Source of the DNA: Pseudoxanthomonas sp. F37
Lineage (GTDB): Bacteria; Pseudomonadota; Gammaproteobacteria; Xanthomonadales; Xanthomonadaceae
Length of the DNA: 64,000 nt
NCBI RefSeq assembly: GCF_022965755.1
Contig: NZ_CP095187.1
Coordinates: 1,302,001-1,366,000 of the forward strand
Direction of reading: 5' to 3'
Within the stretch, counting starts at the first letter, position 1, and each line of letters begins with the position of its first letter. The position numbers were made by a program, and so were the translations under genes. This document shows, one piece after another, positions 19,153-20,654 of the stretch. The notes under the pieces were generated by a model. The model did not search any database. It saw only the letters and a list, made by a program, of their open reading frames with translations, and was not told the DNA's origin.

Positions 19153-20294
19153 GCGATGTCGTCGAGCTGTCCTGCGAACTGATCCGCCGTCATTCGGTGA
19201 CGCCGGACGATGCCGGTTGCCAGCAGGTCCTGGCGACCCGGCTGTCGCAATGGGGATTCCACTGCGAGCACCTGCGCTTCGGCGAGACCGACAACCTCTG
19301 GGCCACGCACGGCAGCGGATCGCCGGTGCTGGTGCTGCTGGGCCACACCGACGTGGTGCCGCCCGGGCCGCTGGATGCGTGGACCAGCGATCCGTTCGTG
19401 CCTACCGTCCGCGACGGCGTGCTCTACGGGCGTGGCACCGCCGACATGAAGTGCAGCGTGGCCGCCTGCACGATCGCACTGGAACGCTTCGTCGACGCGC
19501 ACCCGGACCATCCGGGCACGGTCGCGCTGCTGGTCACGTCGGACGAGGAAGGCCCGGCGCACGATGGTGTGAAGAAGGTTGCCGAGCTGTTCCGCGAGCG
19601 CGGACAGAAGATCGACTGGTGCATCACCGGCGAGCCGTCATCGAAAGACGTGCTGGGTGACCTGCTGCGCGTGGGTCGTCGTGGCACGCTGACCGGCACC
19701 CTGCAGGTGCACGGCGTGCAAGGCCACGTGGCCTATCCGCACAAGGCGCTCAATCCCATCCACAAGGCGTTGCCGGCGCTGGACGAACTCGCCGCGCGCC
19801 AGTGGGACGAGGGCTACGAGACCTTCCCGCCGACCAGCCTGCAGATCTCCAACATCAACGCGGGTACCGGCGCCAGCAACGTCATTCCGGGTGAGCTGCA
19901 GGTGGTGTTCAACCTGCGCTTCAATCCCAGCTGGACGGCGGAGAAGCTGGAGCAGGAAATCGAAGACATCTTCCGTCGCCACGGCGTGGACTACAGCCTG
20001 CAGTGGCTGCGCGGCGGCGAGCCGTTCTACACGCCGGAGGGCCACCTGCGCGCCACCGCGCGGGCGGTGCTGGGCGAATTCGCCGGCGCACCGCCGGAAG
20101 AAAGCACGGCGGGCGGCACCTCCGATGCGCGCTTCATCGCCCCGCTGGGCGCGGAGTGCATCGAGGTCGGGCCGGTCAACGCCAGCATCCACAAGGTCGA
20201 CGAGCACGTGCGCGTGGCGGATCTGGAAGCACTGCCGGGCTTGTACCAGGCCTTGGTGGAGCGCCTGATGCTGCCGGCTCGCACCGCGCTGTAG
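19149..20294 (+). CDS. dapE: Succinyl-diaminopimelate desuccinylase
   Basis: M20-family di-zinc amidase releasing L,L-diaminopimelate from its N-succinyl form. The 381-residue protein shows the ligand motifs [28 protein letters not shown] and a C-terminal His ([10 protein letters not shown]). GTG start at 19149 overlaps the stop of the ArsC-like gene. The last 12 codons, with the stop, belong to a 36-bp sequence that is tandemly duplicated just downstream. The TAG stop is also the foot of a GTAG palindrome. Confidence 0.96.
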
Positions 20295-20330
20295 GAGCGC
20301 CTGAGGCTGTCGGCTCGCACCGCGCTGTAG
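20259..20330 (+). repeat. 36-bp tandem duplication spanning the dapE stop
   Basis: Copy 1 (20259-20294) encodes the end of DapE including TAG. Copy 2 (20295-20330) matches at 34 of 36 positions and is noncoding. Each copy starts GAGCGCC and ends GTAG, and a third GAGCGCC follows, so slippage at the GTAG-REP foot is the simple explanation. Confidence 0.9.
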
Positions 20331-20397
20331 GAGCGCCCTGGGGCGCGATGCCTTTCCACCCGTTCCTGAAAAGCATGGCGCCCTGGGGCGCTCCTAC
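20327..20397. repeat. GTAG-type REP inverted pair (BIME-like)
   Basis: Two inverted copies of a GTAGGAGCGCCCTGGGGCGC palindromic element face each other at 20327-20350 and about 20374-20397. This matches the GTAG-tetranucleotide REP elements known in Stenotrophomonas and relatives, which are mobilised by RAYT transposases. None of the RAYT genes is in this window. A GTAG of the same element also forms the dapE stop one repeat earlier. Confidence 0.85.
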
Positions 20398-20435
20398 AGG
20401 AGTGCGGTGGTTGCAGGCGCAACTTTTTTCGGGGC

Positions 20436-20464
20436 TTGCCAAGGTCTGGTCGGACCGGTTACGG
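20436..20464 (+). promoter_or_regulatory. Candidate promoter of the asnB leader
   Basis: TTGCCA (20436-20441), 17 bp, TTACGG (20459-20464). The -35 is fair and the -10 weak. If real, transcription starts within a few bases of the leader peptide ATG at 20472, which has no Shine-Dalgarno, so the leader peptide would be translated leaderless. Confidence 0.35.
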
Positions 20465-20471
20465 TCGCCCC

Positions 20472-20555
20472 ATGCCCTGCCGCGCCATCATCGCCAATAA
20501 CCGCAACAACCTGCGCCCGAACAACCGGACGCGGGCGATGCGGCTCTGCGACTAG
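20472..20555 (+). CDS. Asparagine-rich leader peptide of asnB (27 aa)
   Basis: An ATG-to-TAG frame of 27 codons, too short for routine gene calling, lies 99 bp upstream of asnB. Six of its codons are Asn, in three adjacent pairs at codons 9-10, 12-13 and 17-18 (about 20496-20501, 20505-20510, 20520-20525). The composition is far above chance in this GC-rich genome. It is followed by a strong terminator, and alternative pairings exist (see the attenuator entry). The role proposed, ribosome stalling when charged tRNA-Asn is scarce, follows the classical trp/his leader model and is inference. Confidence 0.8.
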   Translation: MPCRAIIANNRNNLRPNNRTRAMRLCD

Positions 20556-20615
20556 GCAAGGAAAGACCTGCCGGATTCCAGAAACCCGCATCGCAAGATG
20601 CGGGTTTCTTCGTTT
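20489..20615 (+). promoter_or_regulatory. Attenuator upstream of asnB (mutually exclusive hairpins)
   Basis: Four segments can pair in the classical way. Segment 1 (20489-20495, CATCGCC) pairs with segment 2 (20534-20540, GGCGATG) over 7 bp. Segment 2 (20535-20543, GCGATGCGG) pairs with segment 3 (20586-20594, CCGCATCGC) over 9 perfect bp as antiterminator. Segment 3 pairs with segment 4 as a 12-bp terminator. A ribosome stalled at the first Asn pairs would cover segment 1 and leave 2 free. A ribosome reaching the TAG at 20553 would cover segment 2, so the terminator forms. Confidence 0.78.
20581..20615 (+). terminator. Rho-independent terminator of the asnB attenuator
   Basis: A perfect 12-bp stem, GAAACCCGCATC (20581-20592) with GATGCGGGTTTC (20597-20608), has a GCAA loop and is followed by TTCGTTT. 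It lies 40 bp before asnB rather than after a gene, as expected of an attenuator. Confidence 0.85.
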
Positions 20616-20654
20616 CCGGCTTCCGCCACCGACCCCACCCAGGAGCTTCCACCC

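Follow-up and report, generated by a model that had tools for sequence, protein, structure and literature searches.

A predicted leader-peptide attenuator reading asparagine codons upstream of asnB in Pseudoxanthomonas and its relatives

Background

In Proteobacteria, the trp, his, leu, ilv, thr and phe operons are the classical examples of ribosome-mediated transcription attenuation. In these systems the biosynthetic gene is preceded by a leader ORF with a run of regulatory codons and by an intrinsic terminator, and an antiterminator overlaps both the end of the ORF and the 5' arm of the terminator. Sinorhizobium trpL and the mycobacterial cysteine leaders are leaderless, with the start codon at the 5' end of the transcript. 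In the Firmicutes, the charging of tRNA-Asn is sensed by T-box leaders of asn genes, in which the RNA binds the tRNA directly and translation is not needed.

Here we analyse the region upstream of asnB in a 64,000-nucleotide stretch (the window) of the genome of Pseudoxanthomonas sp. F37, a single contig of 3.97 Mb. The initial annotation of the window proposed that a short Asn-rich ORF controls asnB by attenuation, in that a ribosome stalled early would free an RNA segment (segment 2) to form an antiterminator, and completion of the peptide would cover it. Comparative and modelling evidence supports this logic, and the asnB leader is, in our assessment, very probably a ribosome-mediated transcription attenuator that reads the charging of tRNA-Asn.

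Results

Organization of the asnB leader

The features of the locus are collected in Table 1. The downstream gene is identified as asnB by a match to NCBIfam NF006949 at 879 bits (cut-off 499), with TIGR01536 also matching, and the upstream neighbour on the same strand is dapE. The leader ORF encodes the peptide MPCRAIIANNRNNLRPNNRTRAMRLCD, followed by a stop codon, and on re-reading its annotated coordinates and its six Asn codons in three adjacent pairs proved correct.

Table 1. Features of the asnB leader region (positions in the window)
Feature	Position	Strand	Basis or remark
Putative -35 element, TTGCCA	20436..20441	+	18-nt spacer to TACGGT
Putative -10 element, TACGGT; transcription predicted to begin at 20472 or immediately beside it	20460..20465	+	consensus match
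Leader peptide ORF, 27 aa, six Asn codons in three pairs, probably leaderless	20472..20555	+	ORF reading and conservation
Segment 1, 7 bp with 20534-20540	20489..20495	+	formed in the window; conservation no better than chance
Asn codon pair 1 (AAT AAC)	20496..20501	+	
Asn codon pair 2 (AAC AAC)	20505..20510	+	
Asn codon pair 3 (AAC AAC); in the model, last stalling site at which segment 2 stays free of the ribosome	20520..20525	+	
Segment 2, 5' strand of antiterminator (GCGATGCGG), within ORF end	20535..20543	+	pairing
Intrinsic terminator hairpin (3:4), then interrupted T-run to about 20616	20580..20609	+	pairing, covariation
Segment 3, 3' strand of antiterminator, overlaps terminator 5' arm	20586..20594	+	pairing
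Shine-Dalgarno-like AGGAG of asnB	20641..20645	+	by inspection
asnB, glutamine-hydrolysing asparagine synthase B, 563 aa	20655..22346	+	profile matches

The three pairings named in the annotation are all perfect in the window, at 7 bp for 1:2, 9 bp for 2:3 and 12 bp for 3:4. The 12-bp terminator stem (20581-20592/20597-20608) is lengthened by one more pair to the limits given in Table 1; it is followed by an interrupted T-run (TTTCTTCGTTT), and its end lies 46 nt from the asnB ATG. The antiterminator shares bases with both the ORF end and the terminator 5' arm, and antiterminator and terminator are mutually exclusive. All the anatomical parts of a ribosome-mediated attenuator are present: an ORF with Asn codons, a terminator and an exclusive antiterminator. 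The leader region as a whole folds more stably than its dinucleotide shuffles (z -3.3), chiefly on account of the terminator.

Such an arrangement is rare. Among 445 short ATG ORFs in the window (12-45 aa), a single one combines at least five Asn codons with a terminator behind it, and this is the asnB leader. Control DNA flanking 80 asnB loci (730 kb, both strands) contained four ORFs with at least five Asn codons beyond the excluded leader region; one of the four has a terminator, and by its own sequence it is an asnB leader, on a masked contig (L075). This leader-like ORF, MLSFRHANRANSNRNNAANNRARPMRERDQA at L075:1044 (+), adjoins a masked stretch about 460 nt upstream of asnB, and a second Asn-rich end lies nearer the gene, which could reflect either a duplication or an assembly gap.

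Of 173 leaders, 126 have their best sigma-70-like -10 element ending 6 or 7 nt upstream of the ATG, and a TTGC-like -35 element together with a -10 at this distance recurs in most leaders. From this spacing the RNA is predicted to start at the leader ATG. The ATG is therefore probably the transcript start, as judged from the promoter consensus, and ribosomes would load on it in leaderless fashion; the same suggestion in the initial annotation gains support from the -10 spacing. Between dapE and the leader, at 20280-20402, there are two REP-like repeats, one direct (22 nt) and one inverted (32 nt, CTGTAGGAGCGCC...), both missing at the corresponding site in several relatives. Sub-threshold Rfam microRNA matches at 20312-20444 are located on the inverted repeat and were rejected as chance.

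Distribution of the leader

Regions upstream of asnB were sampled from 30 genomes of the genus, 80 named loci, 102 more loci of the family and 40 loci from other families of the order. Scanned uniformly, the 252 upstreams (duplicates included) gave 176 distinct Asn-rich leaders, a few of which, with only three Asn codons, may be chance. One fixed rule placed a terminator in 149 of the 176; when the rule is relaxed, the same terminator is recognized in many of the others. About 170 distinct asnB leaders are spread over three families of the order. ORF and terminator are present in 30 of 30 upstreams of the genus; the leader is also found in 18 of 20 sampled upstreams of family f12 (one of them weak) and in all three of family f2, and is absent from the 17 sampled in families f5, f7, f9 and f10 (one upstream being incomplete). 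Conservation of an Asn-rich ORF with a terminator, which the annotation had named as a check on its proposal, is thus borne out across the family and the order. The spacing is also constrained, with 16-36 nt between stop codon and terminator and the last Asn codon mostly 27-36 nt ahead of the end of the stop codon.

With a covariance model trained on 29 leaders, the asnB leader was the top match in 37 of 38 genomes of the genus (E 1e-45 to 9e-29); in the 38th (G024) an AsnB match is absent as well. The second matches that we inspected in the genus were ilvC leaders, plain terminators and a tRNA-adjacent hairpin, with no second Asn leader among them.

No Asn leader was found in a set of family members (L200-L214) whose AsnB is about 63-67% identical, which suggests gene replacement or lost control. 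In a class-wide search, close AsnB relatives lay almost all within the order. Two loci labelled Alphaproteobacteria, a Tardiphaga MAG (L103) and Rhodopseudomonas sp. AAP120 (L108), encode an AsnB 82-83% identical to that of the window; about 330 nt before the match they share a different upstream neighbour, and they have no Asn leader. In these two cases asnB appears to have been transferred with its attenuator left behind, contamination being another possibility.

Pairing and covariation of the alternative stems

In the first block of 65 leaders, a ten-pair antiterminator has standard pairs in 93% of cells, versus 20-40% when one side is slid; the corresponding values for alignment A1 are 92.4% versus 20-49%. 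The number of covarying antiterminator pairs in A1 is not above shuffles (286 of 500 reach it), so the case for covariation rests on the second block and on a swap of the arms. In the second block, 24 of the 33 leaders have GC and nine have AU at one antiterminator pair, with zero exceptions; the change replaces the encoded Arg by Gln and is accompanied by the matching change in the terminator arm. Double changes of this kind in the antiterminator are few, and they lack phylogenetic independence. When terminator arms were swapped among 26 representatives, pairing became weaker, and 12 of 5000 permutations equalled the true pairing. The terminator itself is paired in 98.7% of cells, with double changes at three pairs. 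Second block, arm swap and terminator together speak in favour of the covariation that the annotation had expected in relatives.

The 1:2 pairing fared differently: it is formed in the window, as annotated, and is not conserved above a codon-shuffled control. Across the leaders, segment 2 pairs with the upstream ORF at a score of 0.62, versus 0.67 after codon shuffling, and a 1:2 protector stem, which would favour the terminator when the leader is untranslated, is not supported as a conserved element.

Ribosome position and the proposed mechanism

In our model the leading edge of the ribosome lies 12 nt past the A-site codon's first base, and the RNA that was folded runs from this edge through the terminator 5' arm. 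For the window leader, antiterminator availability is 1.0 for A-site positions up to and including the last Asn codon; the three codons that follow give 0.62, 0.29 and 0.01. Averaged over 144 leaders, availability is 0.78 when the last Asn codon occupies the A site, and 0.65, 0.37 and 0.16 for the next three codons, the exact switch codon depending on the assumed ribosome edge to within one or two codons. A ribosome at the regulatory codons is thus computed to free the antiterminator, and one at the ORF end to block it. The drop directly after the last Asn codon implies that the end of the Asn run coincides with the switch point, and the annotated alternative structures, once their energies were computed, do switch at this codon.

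When the 3' arm of the terminator is included, equilibrium folding of the window leader gives -60.1 kcal/mol for the terminator versus -52.1 kcal/mol for the antiterminator, and the terminator is favoured for every ribosome position. The choice of stem would consequently have to be kinetic, made during transcription, as in other attenuators. In the mechanism that we propose, the RNA would start at the leader ATG or right beside it, with a ribosome loading straight onto this 5' end. Were Asn-tRNA scarce, the ribosome would wait at the Asn codons and leave segment 2 free to pair with the terminator 5' arm, allowing RNA polymerase to continue into asnB. With plentiful Asn-tRNA, it would pass the last Asn codon and cover segment 2, so that the terminator could form and transcription would end near 20609-20616.

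The preference for the hairpin in all states at equilibrium, like the interrupted T-run of the window, would also suit a leader in which the ORF senses Asn and the main effect falls on translation initiation or mRNA stability of asnB, the hairpin being a processing or sequestering element. We consider this improbable, given that a run of five or more T follows the hairpin in most relatives and that the asnB Shine-Dalgarno lies about 32 nt past the hairpin, outside the alternative stems.

Codon constraint and the leader peptide

Selection on the Asn codons is evident. Across 60 distinct aligned blocks, the core Asn codons hardly vary at positions 1 and 2, and at position 3 most of them alternate between T and C (AAT/AAC); the counts lack phylogenetic independence. 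It is this codon constraint that leads us to infer translation of the ORF. Elsewhere the peptides form blocks unlike one another save for their Asn runs (e.g., NRNNLRANNRARPMRVCD, NNNNRNNASLPRAGD, NRNNANNRNAERRPRR, ANNANTNNARNLGRVGV and NNRSNNNRRLHKGAGA).

A conserved, short, basic peptide with dapE upstream on the same strand could also be read as a functional small protein, or its Asn content as coincidence, with the hairpin merely terminating a constitutive small RNA or the dapE transcript. Complete divergence of the peptide ends between clades, with Asn runs and layout kept, argues against this reading, as do the free drift at the third positions of the Asn codons, the above-chance pairing of segment 2 with the terminator arm and the lack of a Pfam match; we regard it as very unlikely. 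RNA control of some asn genes elsewhere (the T-boxes of Firmicutes) might point to a metabolite riboswitch or a protein-dependent antiterminator governing the hairpin, with the ORF incidental, but this is barely credible for a leader region with zero Rfam families at gathering score, no match to the T-box covariance model even at E 1, and poor conservation outside the Asn codons and stems.

Codon usage within the Asn runs is skewed: AAT accounts for 46% of the Asn codons in the leaders versus 13% in asnB of the same set (leaders L002-L111), counts that are not phylogenetically independent. AAT and AAC are decoded by one and the same tRNA, tRNA-Asn(GUU), in which queuosine is normally present. 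That the enrichment makes the switch sense queuosine modification besides tRNA-Asn charging is conceivable and improbable; a plainer cause, the keeping of the Asn stretch unstructured, is likelier.

Asparagine and the charging of tRNA-Asn

The product of asnB makes the amino acid that the leader would read. Matches to the AsnRS model were obtained in 149 of 149 family genomes, 144 of them above the curated cut-off. GatB is absent from the window genome, and the same search finds it in 12 of 14 control genomes, leaving AsnRS as the sole route to charged tRNA-Asn in the window genome. With no GatB, free asparagine must be the source of Asn-tRNA, so that charging of this tRNA makes sense as a signal to asnB. 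The absence of GatB thus offers a physiological reason why charging can report free asparagine.

Discussion

The annotation had suggested that an Asn attenuator for asnB may be undescribed, and within the literature searched this is supported. No asparagine or Asn-codon leader of asnB was found in the literature and RNA families covered by our search, whose scope did not extend to the main 2004 proteobacterial survey (Vitreschak), and a broader search of the Xanthomonas literature likewise yielded no asparagine leader. Asparagine is unmentioned in Naville and Gautheret 2010 and in Seliverstov 2005. As far as we could check, asparagine specificity is new for leader-peptide attenuators, an earlier prediction being possible.

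If the proposed attenuator is real, asparagine joins the short list of amino acids with leader-peptide attenuators, and a simple model for the control of asparagine synthesis becomes available for Xanthomonas, Stenotrophomonas, Lysobacter and relatives. A leader responding to asparagine in this way could also serve as an asparagine reporter part for laboratory use. Its spread over three families, with all but the Asn codons and stems turned over, makes a good case for the study of attenuator evolution.

A close counterpart is found in the window genome itself. A classical-looking leader with its terminator, at about 315-482 of locus L257 (G000:C1:3442700-3444200), has in order the peptide MLQRHTPTTTGLTAASAASFLVLVLITSPTSAGRTGV, a stop codon, about 30 nt, a GC-rich terminator and a gene that we take to be ilvC from its IlvC-like N-terminus. 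Its layout is identical to that of the asnB leader, from which it differs in its Val/Leu/Ile codons and in the gene, and this leader is conserved elsewhere in the genus (L259-L262).

The asnB leader shares with the classical attenuators the regulatory codon run, the intrinsic terminator, the downstream biosynthetic gene and the position of the antiterminator across ORF end and terminator arm; it differs from them in that it would read asparagine, is probably leaderless and has a segment 1 that is not conserved above chance. It resembles Sinorhizobium trpL and the mycobacterial cysteine leaders in its regulatory codon run and in its probable start codon at the RNA 5' end, those leaders being specific for other amino acids. 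The mycobacterial leaders lack an obvious terminator (PMC1262725), unlike the asnB leader. Like the T-box leaders of Firmicutes, it would sense the charging of tRNA-Asn upstream of an asparagine gene, but it would do so through a translating ribosome, whereas the T-box is translation-free.
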